Notes under the pieces: generated by a model | Seen by the model: the letters and a program-made list of their open reading frames with translations, nothing else | Databases searched by the model: none | Told to the model about the DNA's origin: nothing | Shown: one piece after another, positions 17,232 to 31,005 of the stretch | Layout of the letters: each line of letters starts with the position of its first letter | Position numbering within the stretch: the first letter of the stretch is position 1 | Made by a program: the position numbers and the translations under genes | Source of the DNA: a virus | Virus record (IMG/VR): IMGVR_UViG_3300006802_000212 | Location: 1 to 39,027 of that record | Direction: 5' to 3' (one strand) | Length of the DNA stretch: 39,027 nucleotides

Positions 17232-17825
17232 CTAGCCTCGGGGGGTGACCGACACATTATAAATTAGCAAATCAAATTTTTTCTCTGGGAGTTTGTCACA
17301 TTCTGGTCACAATCTGATAAATTACCCTCAGAGACTCGCAGTCTTACACAGATAACGCAAGGCCATAATCGAAGCAGCACGCACCTTAAATCAGAAAAGT
17401 ACGGCACTAACTGGTCCTATCTGGACTTACTTTTTAGCTCGGTTAAAAAATTATTTTCAGTCGACAAATCAGTATAATTTATAATTTGTTACGATTGTTG
17501 TTGCATTTGTTACAATTGTTACAGTACCTTTCCATAGTTGCTTTTTGAAATTATTGTTTAAGACACGTTAGTCATTCGCCCATTGGGAACGGTTAATCAC
17601 CAATAAAGAGTAAAACTCTAGCACATAAAAATATGACTAAGGGGCCCGAGCAAGGACCACGGTTTAAGCTCTGTTAAATCTAGTTTACTAGGCATCTTAA
17701 GATGAATGAAGGCCACCTTTCAAGATAGACCCAGACACAACACTCAAACCAGTATAACCAACGAATAACGAAAGTATGCAGTATTAACGTGACACTTAAA
17801 AATTTATCTTTCTTTCTTACCGCTA
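17232..17825. other. Divergent non-coding control region
   Basis: About 600 bases without a credible gene on either strand, between the leftward late operon and the rightward small-gene array. It holds overlapping TATAAT-like boxes at 17473-17485, two 15-bp direct repeats just after them, and several short dyads. No tRNA or known ncRNA was recognised. It is the natural place for promoters of both divergent operons, and a pac site near terL is possible. Confidence 0.6.
17485..17520 (+). repeat. Tandem 15-bp direct repeats, 21 bp apart (operator candidate)
   Basis: TTTGTTACGATTGTT (17485-17499) and TTTGTTACAATTGTT (17506-17520) differ at one base, and their starts are 21 bp apart, two helical turns. 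They immediately follow TATAAT-like boxes. The shared core TGTTACAAT occurs again inside the excisionase promoter at 29402-29410, and TTTTGTTACA occurs inverted at 29459-29468. Inferred to be binding sites for the phage repressor. Confidence 0.55.
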
Positions 17826-17918
17826 GCGGTGGGGCGGATATGGTCCTAGTGTACTTGATTTTAGTCCTAGCGACTTAAAGCCACCGCAAGATTTTTTTAA
17901 TAATGAAAGGATAATAAA
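17826..17918 (+). repeat. Hairpin-RBS cassette, copy 1
   Basis: GCGGTGG (17826-17832) can pair with CCACCGC (17881-17887) across a long loop that also contains CTAGCG/CGCTAG dyads. It is followed by the conserved GCAAGATTT spacer, an AT-rich run and a variant box (TGAAAGGATAATAAA) directly before the ATG at 17919. First copy of the family, with the least certain stem. Confidence 0.5.
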
Positions 17919-18188
17919 ATGATATATGTAGTAGAAACTGAACACCAAGGTATTGTAAACGCTTTTAGTAGTCGCAGATTGCTAATTCACAACCTTAAAA
18001 AACTAGTTAAAACTCACAATGTCAGACCTCAAAAAATAGACCAGTTGATTTATGCAGTTGAACACAATTCTATAATCTGGGAAGAGTTCACCATCTGGGA
18101 AGATGTTACTACAGACGGTGAATTTGTTGGTATAGATGATACAGTTTACATTAAATCTTTTTATGGTAATGAAAGGTTATTAGACTAA
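17919..18188 (+). CDS. Unknown 89-aa acidic protein, first gene of cassette array
   Basis: No family recognised. MIYVVETEHQGIVNAFSSRR opens a mixed alpha/beta sequence with an acidic, aromatic C-terminal half (IIWEEFTIWEDVTTDGEF). The start is set by the cassette box AAAGGATAA six bases upstream. It is the promoter-proximal gene of the rightward array, so probably expressed early. Such genes in temperate phages often encode host-takeover or anti-defence functions, but nothing in this sequence proves that. Confidence 0.75.
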   Translation: MIYVVETEHQGIVNAFSSRRLLIHNLKKLVKTHNVRPQKIDQLIYAVEHNSIIWEEFTIWEDVTTDGEFVGIDDTVYIKSFYGNERLLD

Positions 18189-18192
18189 AAAA

Positions 18193-18250
18193 AAGTCCCA
18201 GTCTTTTATGACTGGGCAAGATTTCAAATAATAAAAGAAAGGATAAAATA
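18193..18250 (+). repeat. Hairpin-RBS cassette, copy 2
   Basis: Stem CCCAGTC (18197-18203) / GACTGGG (18210-18216) with loop TTTTAT, then CAAGATTT, an AT-rich spacer and AAAAGAAAGGATAA. It lies between the stop at 18188 and the ATG at 18251. Confidence 0.8.
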
Positions 18251-18364
18251 ATGGAGTTATTTATGACCGTTATGTGCGTGTTTAGTGTAGTTGCTTTTGT
18301 ATCATTTTATACACTTGTAATTGCTGATATAATACGCAATAAAAACGATTATCTCCCTCGATAA
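18251..18364 (+). CDS. 37-aa single-pass membrane microprotein
   Basis: The frame from ATG 18251 to TAA 18364 encodes MELFMTVMCVFSVVAFVSFY and a short charged tail (IIRNKNDYLPR). One hydrophobic helix spans about residues 3-27, with the positive end predicted cytoplasmic. It has its own hairpin-RBS cassette upstream and another directly downstream, which supports it as a real gene despite its size. Function unknown; candidates are a superinfection-exclusion or membrane-regulator peptide. Confidence 0.65.
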   Translation: MELFMTVMCVFSVVAFVSFYTLVIADIIRNKNDYLPR

Positions 18365-18370
18365 AGTAAA

Positions 18371-18428
18371 AATCCCCACGATCATTTTTGTGGGGTAAAA
18401 TTTTTTTAATAAAAGAAAGGATAAACAA
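18371..18428 (+). repeat. Hairpin-RBS cassette, copy 3
   Basis: Stem CCCCAC (18374-18379) / GTGGGG (18390-18395), then an AAAATTTTTTTAAT spacer and AAAAGAAAGGATAA before the ATG at 18429. The stem sequence differs from copy 2 but pairing is kept. Confidence 0.8.
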
Positions 18429-18986
18429 ATGAGTTATGAACGTAAAATAAGTATGCTAGATGAGCAAGAGGTACTAAGTGAAATTCGACATAGGATATCA
18501 AAGTACAAATATAGAGTTCGTATTATGGCTACAATCTTACCAGTACTTACTAAGTACCAAGGTAAGAAAGTTACCAAGCATATACAAACGGCAGTTAATA
18601 AACATCTGGAAAAAAACACGCCTAAATTTTTAGGTTATGTTAGATGTTATTTAGGCCAGTATAAAGACGAGCTAGTATTCCAATACAATGATATGAAATG
18701 TGAACGTACTGGCAAGCCATTACTAGATTATAATAATCAGTTTAGGGTTGCTCTGGGCACTTCTAAATGGAATGAGCCGTGTATGGCTTATGACGATATG
18801 AGCAAGCAACGTAACAGTTGGATTGCTAATAAAGAAGTCATTGCTGAAACGCTAGTTGAATATGAAAATACGCTTGCTGATTGTAAGGCAATTGTTCGTA
18901 GAAATAATAAAATATACAAACAGTTGCAAGACCTCAGAAGAGATATTGACCGTCAACATTCACGCAACGCATACGCACTTCAATAA
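18429..18986 (+). CDS. Unknown 185-aa basic helical protein
   Basis: No family recognised. It is largely helical and basic in the first half (IRHRISKYKYRVRIMATI; KVTKHIQTAVNKHL), with a central region containing two Cys (YNDMKCERTGKPLL; WNEPCMAYDD) and a coiled-coil C-terminus (NNKIYKQLQDLRRDIDRQ). It differs from most neighbours in being basic. The start is fixed by the cassette box seven bases upstream. Nucleic-acid binding is possible from composition only. Confidence 0.75.
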   Translation: MSYERKISMLDEQEVLSEIRHRISKYKYRVRIMATILPVLTKYQGKKVTKHIQTAVNKHLEKNTPKFLGYVRCYLGQYKDELVFQYNDMKCERTGKPLLDYNNQFRVALGTSKWNEPCMAYDDMSKQRNSWIANKEVIAETLVEYENTLADCKAIVRRNNKIYKQLQDLRRDIDRQHSRNAYALQ

Positions 18987-18991
18987 CCCGC

Positions 18992-19053
18992 AAGTCCCCA
19001 GTTCACCGCATCGAGCTGGGGCAAGATTTATTTAATAAAGAAAGGATAATAAA
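18992..19053 (+). repeat. Hairpin-RBS cassette, copy 4
   Basis: Stem CCCCAG (18996-19001) / CTGGGG (19016-19021), extendable by further pairs, then GCAAGATTTATTTAAT and AAAGAAAGGATAA before the ATG at 19054. Confidence 0.8.
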
Positions 19054-19206
19054 ATGATAAACGTACTTATGTTTTTAGTGAGTTTTGCTTTCAGTTTATG
19101 TTGGGTATTCATACCACAAATTACATTGATGGTTGTGTTCTTAGTTTGGACTGGTTGCACTTTCTACGCTATACATTTTAAACGAGGTGTTTTTAATGAG
19201 GATTGA
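19054..19206 (+). CDS. 50-aa membrane protein
   Basis: The ATG at 19054 follows a cassette box, and the TGA is at 19204-19206. Two hydrophobic stretches (MINVLMFLVSFAFSLCWVF and ITLMVVFLVWTGCTFYAI) predict two membrane helices separated by a Pro-Gln turn, with a basic C-terminus (HFKRGVFNED). The stop overlaps the start of the next gene, suggesting coupled translation. Size and topology resemble small holin-like or superinfection-exclusion proteins, but it is far from the lysis genes and there is no direct evidence. Confidence 0.65.
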   Translation: MINVLMFLVSFAFSLCWVFIPQITLMVVFLVWTGCTFYAIHFKRGVFNED

Positions 19207-19543
19207 TTTTATACAGTTTAATAAAGGTTGTTATGTCTTTGCTGAAGATATGCATCCAGAACACGGATTAGTGGGTAGATGTCTGGCCGTTAGTGCAAGC
19301 ATAGCACAAACTCACCAACTTATTAACCAGTACGCTGATGGGGTTTTTCTAGTCAAATTTGAATGTCATCCAGATTACTTTAAAGATGACTGGGTCAAGT
19401 GGGGCCGTAGGCTTGAAAAGCTCTTAGAACATCCGAATCTAGAACTAGTATCTAGCATAAGGAATAGACGGTTGTATGGTTCAGATGGTACAGAGTACAT
19501 AAGAGATAATCAATTTGAGGTTATGGTTCAATTCTCAAAGTAA
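19196..19543 (+). CDS. Unknown 115-aa protein
   Basis: The start is placed at ATG 19196, preceded by ACGAGGTG, and overlaps the previous stop; a GTG at 19187 would add three residues. The sequence MRIDFIQFNKGCYVFAEDMH continues with alternating strands and helices and no known motif (AQTHQLINQYADGVFLVKFE; WGRRLEKLLEHPNLELV). It is the only gene of this part without its own hairpin cassette, being coupled to the membrane protein upstream. Confidence 0.7.
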   Translation: MRIDFIQFNKGCYVFAEDMHPEHGLVGRCLAVSASIAQTHQLINQYADGVFLVKFECHPDYFKDDWVKWGRRLEKLLEHPNLELVSSIRNRRLYGSDGTEYIRDNQFEVMVQFSK

Positions 19544-19550
19544 TTATACA

Positions 19551-19602
19551 AGGGGGTGCAAGGCCCCCAAAGATTTTATTTAATAAAGAAAGGATAATAA
19601 AA
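19551..19602 (+). repeat. Hairpin-RBS cassette, copy 5 (stem polarity inverted)
   Basis: Stem GGGGG (19552-19556) / CCCCC (19564-19568): here the G-run comes first, whereas most copies have the C-run first. It is followed by the conserved AAAGATTTTATTTAAT spacer and AAAGAAAGGATAA before the ATG at 19603. Confidence 0.8.
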
Positions 19603-20055
19603 ATGGACATAGAAAAAATAAAAGAGCTATTCAGTAATCTTGAGACTGCTTTAAATAAAAACACAATAGAAGTCTGGCAACCAGATAATGTTGATGTTCA
19701 CGAAGTAACCTTACGATGGAAGTCTGAATTGTGCAATGAGGGTTGGCGGAACTATAATAAAACCAAAGACTATATGACGGAAGAAAGTGCTTACACAACA
19801 GAAAGTACTGAGTTCTCTGGATACTACGATGCAATGATGAATCTAAAAAATGAACTGTACAAAGGTGAAAAGCCAGATAGGTATAATTACAAATATGGCA
19901 TATGTGAATGGGAATGGATTTGTTTCAATGACATACGTGAGTCTGGAGAGTTTAATATGCTAGACCCTAGAGCCAGAGAAGACTCTGATATTGATAAAGC
20001 TAACTGGAGTGTAATAGTTCATAACTATGAAGAGCTAGAGAAGTTCTTTAATTAA
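19603..20055 (+). CDS. Unknown acidic 150-aa protein
   Basis: No family recognised. It is rich in Glu, Asp, Trp and Tyr (IEVWQPDNVDVHEVTLRW; YGICEWEWICFNDIRE) and strongly negatively charged overall. The high density of acidic and aromatic residues is typical of phage proteins that imitate DNA to block host nucleases or of small inhibitors, but this is inference from composition. The start is fixed by the cassette box directly upstream. Confidence 0.75.
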   Translation: MDIEKIKELFSNLETALNKNTIEVWQPDNVDVHEVTLRWKSELCNEGWRNYNKTKDYMTEESAYTTESTEFSGYYDAMMNLKNELYKGEKPDRYNYKYGICEWEWICFNDIRESGEFNMLDPRAREDSDIDKANWSVIVHNYEELEKFFN

Positions 20056-20059
20056 CCAA

Positions 20060-20158
20060 GACCCCCCTAAAAATTGTTAAATGTAGAGCAAGACATAAGC
20101 AAGGGTACCTACAATTTTGGGGGGGCAAGATTTATATAACAAAAGAAAGGATAATCAA
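20060..20158 (+). repeat. Hairpin-RBS cassette, copy 6 (extended stem and loop)
   Basis: The 5' arm (20062-20076, C-run then AAAAATTGT) pairs with the 3' arm (20111-20125, ACAATTTT then a G-run) over about 14 bp around a 34-base loop. The conserved GCAAGATTTATATAAC spacer and AAAAGAAAGGATAA follow. It is the largest member of the family. Confidence 0.8.
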
Positions 20159-20458
20159 ATGAAAAAAGTAATCGACCTACTTATAACAACAACTATTCAA
20201 TTAGGTGAAGTTGACGAGTACAGAAACAATATGGGAGTGCTTTTAATAAAAGCTATTTTTGGTGCTCTTAGACCGTTCTGGCCTCACGCTTACAATTCTT
20301 GTCATTCTGGTGATGATTTTAACGTGCCAGAGTTAGTAGATAGTTTTGGAGCAGTTGATACTCGGCACTTCACTGATAAACAGATAGGTTTTATTAGTCT
20401 GTTTTGTGAAAGGGTTGCACATCATTTGGGATACTATGATGCAGATTACGATGAGTAA
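20159..20458 (+). CDS. Unknown 99-aa protein
   Basis: The ATG at 20159 is chosen because it lies at the usual distance from the cassette box; the frame is open upstream through the cassette by chance. It has an N-terminal helix (KKVIDLLITTTIQLGEVDEY), a central aromatic/His segment (LRPFWPHAYNSCHSGDDF) and an acidic tail (YYDADYDE). No recognised domain. Confidence 0.7.
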   Translation: MKKVIDLLITTTIQLGEVDEYRNNMGVLLIKAIFGALRPFWPHAYNSCHSGDDFNVPELVDSFGAVDTRHFTDKQIGFISLFCERVAHHLGYYDADYDE

Positions 20459-20471
20459 TCTATATTGACGT

Positions 20472-20531
20472 AAGGCCCCCTCTAATCCCTTGGGGGCCAA
20501 AGATTTCTATAACAAAAGAAAGGATAAACCA
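20472..20531 (+). repeat. Hairpin-RBS cassette, copy 7
   Basis: Stem GGCCCCC (20474-20480) / GGGGGCC (20492-20498), then AAAGATTTCTATAAC and AAAAGAAAGGATAA before the ATG at 20532. Confidence 0.8.
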
Positions 20532-20738
20532 ATGGACATACATCTACTATTTGTAGAGGGTAGCAATATCAATTTGCTCTATACCAAAACCAGAAAGGCT
20601 ATGGAATGGATTGAGTATAATATTGGTAATGACTACCAAGTGTTTGCAAAAGGTATAGTTATTGAGAACCGTTTTATGGAGCCAATACTAAAAGGATTGC
20701 AAGCCAGTGACCTCAGTTATTTGATACAGAGGTCCTAG
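20532..20738 (+). CDS. Unknown 68-aa protein
   Basis: The ATG at 20532 is set by the cassette box. It is a small alpha/beta protein (MDIHLLFVEGSNINLLYTKT; KAMEWIEYNIGNDYQVFAKG) with no recognised family and no Cys. It is bounded by cassettes on both sides and so forms a single-gene module. Confidence 0.7.
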   Translation: MDIHLLFVEGSNINLLYTKTRKAMEWIEYNIGNDYQVFAKGIVIENRFMEPILKGLQASDLSYLIQRS

Positions 20739-20743
20739 ACCTA

Positions 20744-20815
20744 TAAGTCCCTAGCACTATCTTATTATCCTTTGGCTAGGGCAAAATTTACTTAATCAAA
20801 AGAAAGGATAAACAA
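20744..20815 (+). repeat. Hairpin-RBS cassette, copy 8
   Basis: Stem CCCTAGC (20749-20755) / GCTAGGG (20775-20781), then CAAAATTTACTTAATC and AAAAGAAAGGATAA before the ATG at 20816. Confidence 0.8.
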
Positions 20816-21268
20816 ATGACTAAAACAATATACCCTATACCAGAGTTGTATAAAAATGACTTCAAGGATATAAAAGAGTTTAATCACTTCCTAAGTCAAG
20901 TTGAACACTGGGATGGATTGCCAAGACCTTGTGACCATTGTGGTGGCGGTATGGCATCTTTCTGGATGCACGATGGTGGTTGGGCGGTCTGTAGTAGAAA
21001 ATGCTTTAACGAAGACACTGCTAAAGCTCTTAAATGTTCTGTTGATGATGCTGAAAAACTAATTGATAGATACTACGAATGGATGGACAAGAACGATGGG
21101 GAGCAATGGTATAATGATGATAATGTAATTTACGACAACGCTCTAAAATGCGGATTATTTACTGAAGAAGAAGTTGGCCTAGTATCTGGTTGCTTTTACA
21201 CTGATTTAGAATGTGTTGAAGATTATTACGGTTATGAAGATTCGGACTTCGCATTGAATCAAGAATAA
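20816..21268 (+). CDS. Zinc-binding acidic 150-aa protein
   Basis: A CDHCGGGMASFW segment and CSRKCFNEDTAK about 25 residues later form a Cys4 zinc-knuckle, followed by a helical acidic region (AEKLIDRYYEWMDKNDGEQW) and an acidic C-terminus. Seen: two CxxC/CxxxC pairs. Inferred: a zinc-stabilised fold for protein or nucleic-acid contact. No named family recognised. Preceded by a hairpin-RBS cassette. Confidence 0.75.
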   Translation: MTKTIYPIPELYKNDFKDIKEFNHFLSQVEHWDGLPRPCDHCGGGMASFWMHDGGWAVCSRKCFNEDTAKALKCSVDDAEKLIDRYYEWMDKNDGEQWYNDDNVIYDNALKCGLFTEEEVGLVSGCFYTDLECVEDYYGYEDSDFALNQE

Positions 21269-21270
21269 CA

Positions 21271-21325
21271 AAGTCCCCCCTTTTATGGGGGGCAAAGTTT
21301 ACTTAACAAAAGAAAGGATAATCAG
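21271..21325 (+). repeat. Hairpin-RBS cassette, copy 9
   Basis: Stem CCCCCC (21275-21280) / GGGGGG (21287-21292), loop TTTTAT, then CAAAGTTTACTTAAC and AAAAGAAAGGATAA before the ATG at 21326. Confidence 0.85.
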
Positions 21326-21466
21326 ATGGCTGATTTTAAACTAACCCTAGAGGAAGTTGTCTACGACTACTTGAGAGAAAAGTTAATCGAGTTAGGCGAA
21401 GATGACTTTGTAGATGATGCAGAAACTAGATACCAAGAATATCTGGAGGACTATGGCGATGAATAA
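21326..21466 (+). CDS. Very acidic 46-aa protein
   Basis: Runs from ATG 21326 to TAA 21466. About a third of the residues are Asp or Glu (EELGEDDF-like runs; LEDYGDE at the end), and the protein is predicted helical (LEEVVYDYLREKLIEL). It has its own cassette box and overlaps the start of the next gene, so it is very likely translated. Its extreme charge makes a DNA-mimic or small inhibitor role conceivable, without proof. Confidence 0.65.
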   Translation: MADFKLTLEEVVYDYLREKLIELGEDDFVDDAETRYQEYLEDYGDE

Positions 21467-21710
21467 AAAAGTCAAACTAACTGGTAAAACAATAGAAATA
21501 TCTATTGATGAAGATTACCCACAAACAACAGACCTAGATGAGCAAAAGGAACGTCTAGATGAGATTCAAGAACTTGGATACAATGTTGTTAATTGTGGTA
21601 ATTGTGGGGACGTTCTAATTATAAGCTTATGTCACGATAGTGATTTAATAGAATGTCAAGGTTGCAATTATGTCTCAGAACATTGCGATTACCCAGATTT
21701 TGCTTACTAA
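21459..21710 (+). CDS. Zinc-ribbon-like 83-aa protein
   Basis: The start at ATG 21459 is preferred: GGAGG ends nine bases upstream, while an earlier ATG at 21453 is too close to it. Residues NCGNCGDVL and ECQGCNYVSEHC form a Cys4 zinc-ribbon after a short basic-then-acidic N-terminus (MNKKVKLTGKTIEISIDEDY). It overlaps the preceding acidic gene by eight bases, so the two are a translationally coupled pair behind one cassette. Function unknown. Confidence 0.7.
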   Translation: MNKKVKLTGKTIEISIDEDYPQTTDLDEQKERLDEIQELGYNVVNCGNCGDVLIISLCHDSDLIECQGCNYVSEHCDYPDFAY

Positions 21711-21712
21711 TC

Positions 21713-21767
21713 AAGTCCCCCCTTTATGGGGGGCAAGACTTACTTAACTAAAAGAAAGGATAATAGT
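21713..21767 (+). repeat. Hairpin-RBS cassette, copy 10
   Basis: Stem CCCCCC (21717-21722) / GGGGGG (21728-21733), loop TTTAT, then CAAGACTTACTTAACT and AAAAGAAAGGATAA before the ATG at 21768. Confidence 0.85.
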
Positions 21768-22331
21768 ATGTATGATAAAATACTAGAAAATGCAAAGTCA
21801 CTTATCAGTGCAATTGATAACAGTTACTTAGGTGAACTATGGGATACCGATTTAGAGAATGCTCACGCTAGTGTTTGCTATCACGGTATATCAGAACAAC
21901 TTGATGAACTTAAAAATGCAATCAAGAAAACTGAGAAGTTAATCTATGACCAAGATGCTAACAATCATCCAGTATGGAAAGAGCTTAGAATCGACCCATA
22001 TACGTATGATGACTTTACACATCTTGATGGTAGTTACGGTGATCCAGATGGTGGTTGTGAATGGTATAAGTTCTGGTGGGATAGTTACGAGGGAATCTGG
22101 GTTGAATTTCAGATTCAAGTTACACTGGATAATGGTAGAGACTGGGGTAGTGTAGTGATTGACAACTGGAAGTCAGAAGAAGACACAATCAAATGGCTAC
22201 GTGATAGAAATGTTGATGAAGACAATGAACTTAGTGATGATTTTATTCTTGATGAGGCTCACGGACTCTTTGAAATAATACCATTCAATGATGGTTTTTT
22301 AATTAACAAGGAGAAAGTCTATGAAGATTAA
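21768..22331 (+). CDS. Strongly acidic 187-aa protein
   Basis: The ATG at 21768 is fixed by the cassette box; an ATG at 21726 inside the hairpin is in frame but has no Shine-Dalgarno. The protein is Asp/Glu/Trp/Tyr-rich (CEWYKFWWDSYEGIWVEF; DEDNELSDDFILDEAHG). Its middle looks beta-rich and its N-terminus helical. No family recognised. The stop overlaps the next gene, whose ATG follows AAGGAGAAAG. Composition again suggests a charged mimic or inhibitor; function is inferred only. Confidence 0.75.
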   Translation: MYDKILENAKSLISAIDNSYLGELWDTDLENAHASVCYHGISEQLDELKNAIKKTEKLIYDQDANNHPVWKELRIDPYTYDDFTHLDGSYGDPDGGCEWYKFWWDSYEGIWVEFQIQVTLDNGRDWGSVVIDNWKSEEDTIKWLRDRNVDEDNELSDDFILDEAHGLFEIIPFNDGFLINKEKVYED

Positions 22332-22590
22332 AACCTATTACGTCACGGTCCACGAAACTAGAGCTAGGACCTACCAAATAAATGCCAACAATGAAGACGA
22401 TGCAATACAGAAATACAAGACTGTTCCATATCAAGAACTGGTCGAAGACCAATGTATTGATGAGGACATTAGTGGTGTAATTCAAAAATGTGGCTACGAG
22501 GAATGGCAACTAGCTGGTGAACCAGAGTTTAGAAAAGATGGTACACCATATTACAAGTGGGACGATGATATTCAATGCACTTGCGATTAA
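22321..22590 (+). CDS. Unknown 89-aa protein
   Basis: The ATG at 22321 follows an AAGGAG box and overlaps the previous gene by 11 bases. The N-terminus (MKIKTYYVTVHETRARTYQI) is an edge-strand pattern followed by NANNEDDAIQKY. This strand-then-'A.n.edAi..y' pattern is common in small phage and host DpnD/PcfM-like or Arg-rich cap domains, but is too short for a firm call. The end is acidic with two Cys (DDDIQCTCD). Confidence 0.65.
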   Translation: MKIKTYYVTVHETRARTYQINANNEDDAIQKYKTVPYQELVEDQCIDEDISGVIQKCGYEEWQLAGEPEFRKDGTPYYKWDDDIQCTCD

Positions 22591-22591
22591 C

Positions 22592-22646
22592 AAGACCCCC
22601 CTTTATAGGGGGGCAAGATTTGTATAACAAAGGAAAGGATAAAACG
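22592..22646 (+). repeat. Hairpin-RBS cassette, copy 11 (integrase leader)
   Basis: Stem CCCCCC (22596-22601) / GGGGGG (22608-22613), loop TTTATA, then CAAGATTTGTATAAC and the box variant AAAGGAAAGGATAA before the integrase ATG at 22647. The integrase therefore shares the leader type of the small accessory genes. Confidence 0.85.
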
Positions 22647-23648
22647 ATGAAAGTATACAAAAGAAGAGGTTCGTCAAATTACTGGCTGACCTATTCAGAG
22701 GATGGTAAAAGACATCGTATGTCACTTGGCACTACACGTAAAGCGGATGCCGAGCAACGTGCTGATACTATCCGTAAACGTCTCTGGTTAAAACAAGAGG
22801 GTTTGTTGACGGTTGAAAGACCTAATCTCACTCTGGCTGATTTGACCATTGACTACTTATCAAACGTAGTTGATGAGAACAACAAATCTCAGCAATCTAA
22901 AGACACTGACAAAAGGTGGATTAATAGATTCTTAGAGTTTGTTGGACCAAGTACCGTTTTTAGTACTATCGATGAATCACATTGTAACAGATTCATTAAT
23001 AGCTACAAACAAGCGGAACCACCTATTGCTGAGACTACCTTACACAAAGCTGGCCAAATACTTTGCAGTATGTTTAAGTATGCAAGTAGGCCACCATATG
23101 AGGCCAAATACAATCCATTTGAATGGGCCCAAGGTGTAAAGCAGTTATCTAAAAAAGGTGAAAAGCAGCTACCAGTTGAATGGGATAAAGTGATTGATGC
23201 TATTGAGCAGACAAACAACCAGAATGATAAAATGTTCTGGACCTTGTTAGCTTATACTGGTATGAGTCCAATAGATGCACCACTCATTACGATGGATGAC
23301 TTCAAACGAGGTTACTTCAAACGTAGTAAAACGAGTGTGCGTTTTAGTGTCTGGTTACATCCAGAGATAGAAAAGTATGGTGAGTCTATCTTTGGTTTAT
23401 ATCCCAAAAGACACCAGCGTGATGATAGCAATAGACGATTCAAAAAGATAACTGGACACCCATTGAAGTCAGTGCGTAAGACATTCGCATCTACTTTGGT
23501 TACTCAGTTTGAAAGTGCTGAAGATGCAATTGCTTTCACTGGTCACACCAACATAAAGACCTTGATGGACCACTATGCAACAGTGGACCCAGAGGTAGTA
23601 AAGAGTAAACTGGAAAAAATGTTTCCAGAACAGTATAACGTAGCCTAG
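22647..23648 (+). CDS. int: Tyrosine recombinase / integrase (333 aa)
   Basis: Catalyses site-specific recombination between attP and a host tRNA-Leu gene. Layout: an arm-binding-like N-terminus (1-55), a core-binding SAM-like domain (60-160) and a catalytic domain (170-330). Visible active-site residues: K228 in the beta-hairpin (FKRSKTSVRF), K274 and R277 (LKSVRKTFAS, with Lys at the usual His place), H300 (FTGHTN) and the nucleophile Y310 (MDHYATVD). The normally invariant first Arg is a Ser here (AYTGMSPIDA, S207), as in the CTnDOT integrase. The start follows a hairpin-RBS cassette. The gene is 6.8 kb from the attP candidate. Confidence 0.9.
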   Translation: MKVYKRRGSSNYWLTYSEDGKRHRMSLGTTRKADAEQRADTIRKRLWLKQEGLLTVERPNLTLADLTIDYLSNVVDENNKSQQSKDTDKRWINRFLEFVGPSTVFSTIDESHCNRFINSYKQAEPPIAETTLHKAGQILCSMFKYASRPPYEAKYNPFEWAQGVKQLSKKGEKQLPVEWDKVIDAIEQTNNQNDKMFWTLLAYTGMSPIDAPLITMDDFKRGYFKRSKTSVRFSVWLHPEIEKYGESIFGLYPKRHQRDDSNRRFKKITGHPLKSVRKTFASTLVTQFESAEDAIAFTGHTNIKTLMDHYATVDPEVVKSKLEKMFPEQYNVA

Positions 23649-23656
23649 AGGTGAGA

Positions 23657-23857
23657 ATGGACGAAGTAAAAGCAGATGGGTTTGAATGGGAACAGATGAC
23701 ATCAATGGTTCACGTACTACGTGCCGAGATGTCTACAAACCAGTTCAATCAATTAAAAGGGTTAGCAGCAATGTCTGGCAAAACTTTTCAGAAGTTTGTT
23801 GGAGATGCTCTATGCTCTGTAATTCGTAAACATAAAGATAAGGAGAATACTCAATAA
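23657..23857 (+). CDS. Small ribbon-helix-helix-like protein (66 aa)
   Basis: The ATG at 23657 has AGAGGTGAG just upstream. The pattern MSTNQFNQLKGLAAMSGKTF then QKFVGDALCSVIRKH resembles ribbon-helix-helix (CopG/Arc-type) proteins: a short strand, then two helices around a 'sGkt' turn. It lies eight bases after the integrase stop, in the same transcript, and precedes a terminator. A role in regulating the integrase or acting as a recombination directionality factor is inferred. Confidence 0.6.
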   Translation: MDEVKADGFEWEQMTSMVHVLRAEMSTNQFNQLKGLAAMSGKTFQKFVGDALCSVIRKHKDKENTQ

Positions 23858-23858
23858 G

Positions 23859-23899
23859 CAAAGGGGGGCCAGGAATAGACTTGGTCCCCCTTTTTTTTT
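23859..23899 (+). terminator. Intrinsic terminator after integrase operon
   Basis: AAAGGGGGGCCA and TGGTCCCCCTTT flank a ten-base loop, followed by a run of nine T. This is a strong rightward intrinsic terminator. The complementary strand also forms a hairpin with a weaker U-run, so it may stop the leftward operon as well. Confidence 0.85.
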
Positions 23900-30371: not shown

Positions 30372-30444
30372 GAGGGGGCAACCACCGTCAATCTACACGG
30401 TTGTTCCCTCAAGACTGCGTGTCTACCAGTTCCACCACTTCGGC
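30372..30444 (-). other. attP: attP candidate: 5' half of a tRNA-Leu gene plus inverted repeat
   Basis: On the minus strand from 30444, GCCGAAGTGGTGGAACTGGT, then AGACACGCAGTC and the anticodon loop TTGAGGG (anticodon GAG, 30410-30408) reproduce the acceptor, D-arm and anticodon 5' half of a tRNA-Leu. After the loop the sequence no longer pairs as a tRNA; instead an imperfect inverted repeat spans 30372-30410. An incomplete tRNA ending in the anticodon loop is typical of tyrosine-integrase attachment cores. Confidence 0.7.
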
Positions 30445-30502
30445 AAATCGTTGTTTTATGTTTCGTACTGTGACCAAATTGTGTCATCACTTTTTTCAGA
30501 GC

Positions 30503-30535
30503 AAAGGGGAGAAATTAATTCTCCCCTTTTTTTTT
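30503..30535 (+). terminator. Strong intrinsic terminator after repressor/attP
   Basis: AAAGGGGAGAA (30503-30513) and TTCTCCCCTTT (30519-30529) enclose a five-base loop and are followed by a T-run to 30535. Rightward terminator for the repressor transcript. The opposite strand forms the same hairpin, with a short U-run, behind the endolysin gene. Confidence 0.85.
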
Positions 30536-30540
30536 CTAAC

Positions 30541-30560
30541 CCAAAAGAAAGGATAATTTC
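30541..30560 (+). repeat. Orphan copy of the RBS box
   Basis: CCAAAAGAAAGGATAATTTC carries the same AAAAGAAAGGATAA box as the 17.8-22.6 kb cassettes and likewise follows a hairpin (the terminator), but no start codon or reading frame follows. It looks like the leader of a lost gene. Confidence 0.6.
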
Positions 30561-30585
30561 ATAATAAGTTAGGGTAGCGAATATA

Positions 30586-31005
30586 CTATTTCAGCTCAAA
30601 ATGTACAAGGTCATCGAACCTTTGGGTCTTATCAGTACGCTTACTATTTGGTCGGCCACTAAATTTATGGTCACCATTCCAGTCACCGCCCCAGCGAATC
30701 TTAACACCAAGTTTTTTTGCAGTAGCTATCATAAGGCCAGCTAAATACATATATCCTTTAGTGTCTTCAAAGTCAATGGGATAAGGACTTATATCGAGTG
30801 CTCTTCCAGTTTGATGTTTACTTTTTTTATAGACACCATCTAGTTTGGACTTGCCCTCATTATATAAATCAATCTGTCGGTCTTGGGACCTAACACCCTC
30901 AAGTATAGTTATATCATAATATTTAATAATATCATTAACAATATTCACTAGGTCTGGGTGTACACCTTTTAACCGTTCTTTGGAACGTCTACCAAACTTT
31001 GGCAT
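30586..31005 (-). CDS. Endolysin: M15-family L-Ala-D-Glu / D-Ala-D-Ala peptidase (139 aa)
   Basis: Cuts peptidoglycan peptide bonds at lysis. The zinc ligands of the M15/VanY-like fold are H64 and D71 (KHQTGRALDIS) and H135 (DLVHFELK); SQDRQ and GVRS precede them as in T5-type endolysins. The protein is a bare catalytic domain with no cell-wall-binding domain or signal peptide, so a holin is expected. The start overlaps the stop of a 56-aa gene (TAATG). Last gene of the leftward late operon. Confidence 0.8.
   Translation of the reverse strand: MPKFGRRSKERLKGVHPDLVNIVNDIIKYYDITILEGVRSQDRQIDLYNEGKSKLDGVYKKSKHQTGRALDISPYPIDFEDTKGYMYLAGLMIATAKKLGVKIRWGGDWNGDHKFSGRPNSKRTDKTQRFDDLVHFELK

Follow-up and report, generated by a model that had tools for sequence, protein, structure and literature searches.

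Repeats at the start codons of phage genes are known from cluster K mycobacteriophages, in which many non-structural genes bear a 13-bp start-associated sequence (SAS), GGGATAGGAGCCC, at the start codon; about half of the SAS carry upstream inverted repeats (extended SAS, ESAS), for which the authors found no support for RNA pairing (PMC3203893). For hammerheads clustered near phage integrases, a role in cleaving long transcripts to gene-length mRNAs has been proposed (PMC3088659). The loops of the c4 antisense RNA of phages P1 and P7 pair with their target around the ribosome-binding site (RBS) and block translation (PMC12197685), and RegB and RegA of phage T4 bring about the coordinate shut-off of many early mRNAs at translation initiation regions (PMC3014915). 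Here we describe a module, composed of a hairpin and an extended RBS, that occurs 11 times in the accessory gene array of a virus record of 39,027 bases (IMG/VR IMGVR_UViG_3300006802_000212; the whole stretch is called the window, and positions count from its first letter). The reading that we favour, on which our confidence is evenly balanced, is that this module acts as mRNA punctuation and as a regulon tag that places the tagged genes under shared antisense control of translation.

The module and SAS/ESAS are alike in being start-codon repeats with an inverted repeat just upstream, in SAS in about half of the cases. The first-pass annotation had drawn a contrast with the mycobacteriophage sequences on the presence of a hairpin, which needs correction in view of ESAS; what does distinguish the module is that RNA pairing is strongly supported. 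The ESAS arms are conserved, whereas the arms of the window module are free in sequence and fully paired, and RNAs complementary to its box exist. An assignment to SAS/ESAS was rejected, as the box is AAAGAAAGGATAA, not GGGATAGGAGCCC, and the arm sequences vary while pairing is kept. Likewise, the clustered prophage hammerheads resemble the module in that structured RNAs separate successive genes close to a phage integrase, but the window module has no hammerhead core or known self-cleaving fold. The elements discussed below are as follows, with bit scores from the covariance model (CM) R1.

17804–17818 (+): anti-RBS tract TTATCTTTCTTTCTT, the 5'-most element of the leader structure, invariant in 7 phages
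17820–17921 (+): leader pseudoknot, its final part being module 1 (CAAGATTT, box, start codon of gene 17919); CM match 17877–17921, 40.7 bits
18192–18253 (+): module 2, before gene 18251; 73.8 bits
18369–18431 (+): module 3, before gene 18429; 64.1 bits; closing pair A-U instead of G-C, covarying
18991–19056 (+): module 4, before gene 19054; 62.4 bits
19549–19605 (+): module 5, before gene 19603; 37.1 bits; stem of inverted polarity, GGGGG..CCCCC
20061–20161 (+): module 6, before gene 20159; CM match 20100–20161, 48.8 bits; long hairpin with a 42-nucleotide (nt) loop in the automatic parse, an inner ATTGT/ACAAT helix being possible
20471–20534 (+): module 7, before gene 20532 (family F1, 68 amino acids); 46.1 bits
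20744–20818 (+): module 8, before gene 20816; 58.8 bits; loop 20759–20773 complementary to the box
21270–21328 (+): module 9, before gene 21326; 66.6 bits
21712–21770 (+): module 10, before gene 21768; 71.2 bits
22591–22649 (+): module 11, before the integrase gene 22647; 67.2 bits
30536–30573 (-): candidate anti-RBS RNA hairpin in the 3' untranslated region (UTR) of the endolysin gene; its 17-nt loop GAAATTATCCTTTCTTT (30544–30560) is complementary to the box
30503–30529 (probably bidirectional): terminator-like hairpin after the anti-RBS hairpin; stem kept, sequence different, in 4 phages

All 11 copies lie on the + strand before start codons, from gene 17919 to the integrase at 22647 (PHROG 1, E 1.6e-32), and no copy precedes any gene outside the array in the window. 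The boxes (GAAAGGATAA) begin at 17905, 18237, 18415, 19040, 19588, 20145, 20518, 20802, 21312, 21754 and 22633, and the ATGs they serve lie at 17919, 18251, 18429, 19054, 19603, 20159, 20532, 20816, 21326, 21768 and 22647, the distance from box to ATG being constant across the copies. The earlier claim that the same module stands before each gene or coupled gene pair of this interval is thus borne out, as is the claim that the genes lacking a copy (19196, 21459 and 22321) each overlap the preceding gene. The box is AAAGAAAGGATAA in nine of the 11 copies and has one mismatch in the other two; a search for AAAGAAAGGATAA with at most two mismatches gave 17 matches versus 3.9 ± 2.0 in shuffled sequence, and none of 100 shuffles reached 17. 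Conservation of the box spans about 15 bases (extended box AAAAGAAAGGAUAAU), which goes beyond Shine-Dalgarno needs. Each module is ordered as the previous stop codon, hairpin, CAAGAYUU, GGATA and ATG, with about 24 nt between the stem end and GGATA and 10–11 nt between GGATA and ATG. Because the stem follows the previous stop codon at a median of 7 nt, the hairpin belongs to the 3' side of the upstream gene no less than to the 5' side of the next one. An Rfam search of the window gave no match.

The hairpin is conserved as a structure. From the window and its relatives, 49 non-redundant modules were gathered, and the 27 with short loops were aligned. Their helix comprises seven pairs, a single bulged base parting the outermost pair from the rest, and every pair cell is formed (189/189). 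Two-sided changes fill 47 cells, as compared with 13 ± 3 in shuffles, none of 500 shuffles being as good, and they are seen in six of the seven pairs; in three sequences the outer G-C has become A-U on both sides simultaneously. When the partner is slid by one base, pairing falls to 55–60%. The unpaired flanks, 5' AAG(U) and 3' CAAGAYUU, are conserved, and the sequences of the arms are free. Judged from these substitutions, the constraint is on RNA (or folded-strand) structure rather than on sequence. The notion of one repeated unit therefore stands for the pairing and the flanks, not for the stem sequence, which varies. A short hairpin, CCCCCCTTTATAGGGGGG, recurs before unrelated genes (L009 13395, L010 7982 and 8816, L012 899, and the window at 22630), which suggests exchange between modules or convergence.

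R1 finds 11 copies in the window at 37–74 bits, other matches reaching only 23 bits (30516) and 17 bits (14503), and it finds the module in every phage with a TerL identity of at least 83% whose contig covers the array. The array matches number 13 in G003, 12 in G001 and 8 in G002, confined to the array in each. In these relatives the module precedes almost every array gene, and the genes themselves are largely different; gene content and order vary, a few families are common, and orthologous genes carry modules with unrelated stems, as exemplified by the 68-amino-acid family F1 in four phages. In the TerL tree, the module-bearing phages form one clade (a monophyletic group). The more distant L024 (TerL 72%) carries a divergent module that keeps hairpin-CAAGAUUUU with a different RBS (GGAGAGAACAATG), so the two halves of the module are separable. 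The two outcomes that the first-pass annotation named as refuting were tested for, and neither came about: the module is strongly enriched in related phages, and its covariation is better than in shuffled and slid controls. Across 84,980 bacterial and archaeal genomes, the module pattern gave single matches only (best CM score 34 bits) and no arrays, and these matches were put down to chance. A scan of viral contigs with a relaxed pattern gave only isolated matches beyond the known relatives, and no relatives were found with the integrase as query.

In addition to the array copies, the window contains one exact box without a start codon, at 30544–30556, just 3' of the endolysin gene (30586–31005, minus strand) and adjoining the terminator-like hairpin. 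Four genomes cover the endolysin 3' region (the window, G006, G001 and G002). An exact anti-box occupies the same place in the first three, where it is the sole unexplained one, and G002 has it with one mismatch in the 14-nt probe. The endolysin-sense strand reads GAAAUUAUCCUUUCUUU, with 17 nt invariant; the outer stem of the hairpin that holds it varies from phage to phage, and this strand folds better in three of the four phages. The complementarity to the target RBS sits in the hairpin loop, as in c4-like antisense RNAs of the loop type. The predicted duplexes with the 11 array RBSs all comprise 12–17 consecutive bases at -14 to -22 kcal/mol, as compared with a mean of -7 to -10 kcal/mol for shuffled RBS regions; since it can pair with every array RBS, one RNA could silence all array genes. 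Within the array, the loop at 20759–20773 in module 8 (ATCTTATTATCCTTT), the module after F1, is complementary to the box as well; such an anti-RBS loop (TATTATCCT) stands in the hairpin that directly follows F1 in all four F1-bearing phages, despite unrelated next genes. A search of L024 for an orphan anti-box found none, and the hammerhead-bearing phages described below gave a few unassigned matches.

The first gene of the array is preceded by a larger structure. As a correction to the first-pass annotation, the first copy (17826–17921) is no ordinary hairpin; it makes up the 3' portion of a pseudoknotted leader that begins at 17804 and is kept in seven phages with its anti-RBS tract, pseudoknot and inner hairpin. 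Nucleotides 17820–17823 pair with a later GCGG and 17826–17832 with 17881–17887, alongside the inner hairpin; 97% of the leader pair cells are formed, with 27 two-sided changes, and none of 500 shuffles is as good. The anti-RBS tract pairs with the RBS of the first gene in the RNAalifold consensus and in the fold of the window. Invariance of this helix within the clade proves nothing alone; in L024, GTTCTCTCTCC replaces the tract and the RBS is GGAGAGAAC, so that by sequence both partners have changed and pairing is kept. In several hammerhead-type phages the complement at the leader-equivalent position may be the RBS of a divergent gene and was left uncounted. Upstream of the pseudoknot, the window has a long non-coding leader (17580–17800), parts of which are conserved in G001, G002 and G003. 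Between terL and the array, at 17484–17520, lies a repeated TTGTTACRATTGTT, shared in part by relatives (TTGTTACAATTGTTACA in L017, TTGTTACAATTGTTAC in L024), possibly an operator or promoter region.

The conserved linker after the stem resembles a processing site. RN^WUU, the in-vivo consensus of RNase E (PMC5222698), occurs within 10 nt after the stem in 48 of 49 modules, as compared with 8.5 ± 2.5 in shuffled linkers, and is single-stranded, as an intercistronic RNase E site would be. Sister phages (TerL about 55–61%) have a corresponding array that likewise closes with an integrase followed by a short gene, and several of its genes are preceded by a full hammerhead core with three stems. 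Scanning for the core together with its stems returned 13 matches across the 26 loci of relatives, while 2.67 million strand-bases from other loci yielded no match. The Rfam scores of the sister sequences lie below gathering (Hammerhead_1, E = 0.03; RAGATH-1, E = 0.06), so hammerhead activity in the sister phages is likely rather than certain. Since the sister phages have these sequences there, the module sits where relatives appear to cut their mRNA. The window module itself was rejected as a hammerhead, with no Rfam match in the window and no core match in the loci of its clade. Hammerhead-like sequences number 1–4 per contig in L026, L029, L031, L033, L035, L036, L037, L039, L215–L217, L231, L238, L245 and L251. 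In L217, about 130–60 nt upstream of the gene at reverse-complement position 1190, a tRNA-like sequence (GGGGTTCAATTCCCC ... TATACCTC) separates two array genes; this stretch is not recognised as a tRNA by ARAGORN.

These features can be joined into a model in which the GC-rich hairpin, standing some 7 nt past each stop codon, would close the upstream gene within a polycistronic accessory transcript. The single-stranded CAAG-AYUU that follows would most likely be cut by a host endonuclease of the RNase E type, separating the units, so that the upstream one would finish in a 3' end protected by the hairpin and the downstream one would start with an A-rich 5' UTR of about 30 nt. Every unit would then start with the extended RBS AAAAGAAAGGAUAAU, a common antisense target for the leader (at the first gene), for the loop after F1 and, above all, for the 3' hairpin RNA of the endolysin transcript. 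By pairing with 12–17 nt of each array RBS, this RNA could turn off translation of the whole array at once and, coming from the end of the endolysin transcript, would appear late. The full version of the model, in which one conserved antisense RNA at the 3' end of the late endolysin transcript silences the tagged array, the hairpins make the units independent and the sister phages punctuate with hammerheads instead, is a tentative proposal that we place a little short of an even chance. Such a shut-off would functionally resemble those by c4 and by RegB/RegA while being a member of neither. c4 acts on the ant mRNA, whereas the candidate would address all array RBSs through their shared box and sits at the end of the endolysin transcript; the T4 system employs a GGAG-cutting RNase and a repressor protein, whereas the candidate effector here is an RNA.

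Of the functions suggested in the first-pass annotation, a translational switch is supported by way of the RBS box and the complementary RNAs (17804–17818, 20759–20773 and about 30536–30573), not by way of a hairpin that opens the RBS, since destroying the stem in silico shifts the mean RBS opening energy by 0.27 kcal/mol only (p = 0.008). An RNase site or mRNA-protection element is compatible with the stop-to-stem distance, the RN^WUU motif and the hammerhead-like sequences of the sister phages, cleavage itself being predicted. Shuffling of genes as cassettes agrees with the differing gene content and order; the stem sequence is not tied to the gene, and shuffling may thus be a consequence rather than the function.

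Several observations weigh against punctuation combined with antisense control. RBS opening is nearly independent of the stem. Not all array genes are tagged; a ribbon-helix-helix gene after the integrase (about 23657) also lacks a module. RN^WUU has few positions and the linkers share ancestry, so that 48 of 49 are not 48 independent events. For the 3' RNA of G002, one phage of the four, it is the opposite strand that folds better, and a decoy RBS on that strand is possible; taken genome by genome, the leader tract does not reach significance through its complementarity alone. Finally, the host group, likely Gammaproteobacteria, is read from a tRNA-Leu fragment only. Gammaproteobacteria have RNase E.

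If the module were punctuation only, the hairpin and CAAGAYUU would serve processing and 3' protection, the box would be kept by duplication or recombination of modules, and the anti-RBS sequences would be incidental or have another role. The 7-nt median from stop to stem, RN^WUU and the hammerhead-like sequences that occupy the corresponding places in sister phages fit this explanation, as does the gene-length mRNA model for clustered phage hammerheads (PMC3088659); it is nevertheless unlikely, for it leaves unexplained the invariant 17-nt anti-box 3' of the endolysin gene, kept in four phages amid diverged flanks, and, in L024, the concerted alteration of the leader tract and its RBS partner. 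A hairpin-AAGAUUU-A-rich RBS operator, through which a phage or host RNA-binding protein represses or activates the array, would account for the conserved unpaired AAG(U) and CAAGAYUU that flank a stem free to vary in sequence, with 30544–30560 serving on the + strand as an RBS-mimicking decoy. T4 RegA and gp32 are models for such operators, and the T4 gene 32 leader is pseudoknotted, to which the leader here may be likened. In G002 it is the + strand of the orphan element that folds better, but the endolysin-sense strand does so in three of the four phages, and the searched array proteins included no RNA-binding candidate; we consider this operator quite improbable.

Translation insulation, in which the hairpin shields each RBS from its upstream context and thereby lets genes be freely swapped, has a precedent in the RiboJ part of synthetic circuits. 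The constant stem-to-RBS distance, an array gene content that mostly differs between phages and the slight rise in RBS opening energy upon stem loss speak for it, yet that rise is too slight to be of much consequence, the A-rich RBS is open as it stands, and the conserved flanks would go unexplained, making an insulator very unlikely. A DNA-level recombination site, used by the nearby tyrosine integrase on an attC-like folded strand for shuffling cassettes, would suit free-sequence hairpins with one bulged base, an integrase at the array end, cassette-like gene turnover and an anti-RBS loop that stays with the upstream gene F1. We give it scant credence: conservation extends to the RBS and start codon, the integrase is itself module-tagged and of phage type, the probable attP lies near 30400, distant from the array, and sister phages have ribozyme-like sequences at the module positions. 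Hardly credible at all is that the modules are intrinsic terminators or attenuators between genes; GC-rich hairpins do follow the stop codons, but no U-run comes straight after the stem, only one of the 11 (18374) is flagged on the + strand, and the array has its actual terminator at 23860.

Accessory phage genes come and go, and each newcomer needs expression and regulation in step with the rest. If punctuation combined with shared antisense control is correct, the module is a plug-in standard, with which any gene placed behind the tag obtains its own mRNA unit and the common switch, and the array is a natural case of a single antisense RNA governing a gene set through a repeated RBS. The related phages provide a natural comparison of hairpin and self-cleaving ribozyme at the same positions, and R1 together with the 17-nt loop offers a direct means of finding more cases and testing function.

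The host inference draws on 30407–30447 (minus strand), which contains the 5' half of a tRNA-Leu(GAG) gene, GCCGAAGTGGTGGAACTGGTAGACACGCAGTCTTGAGG, and is the probable attP. Close matches to this fragment were found in 36 of 369 gammaproteobacterial genomes versus one of 385 genomes of Alphaproteobacteria; a prophage search for the host gave only distant TerL matches (32–39%). Among the array proteins, the 150-amino-acid product of 20816–21268 has a Cys/His cluster (CDHCGG...CSRKC) that looks zinc-ribbon-like by eye, with no Pfam match. The small ribbon-helix-helix protein encoded after the integrase (23657–23857), just before the array terminator, has a weak match to ParD.

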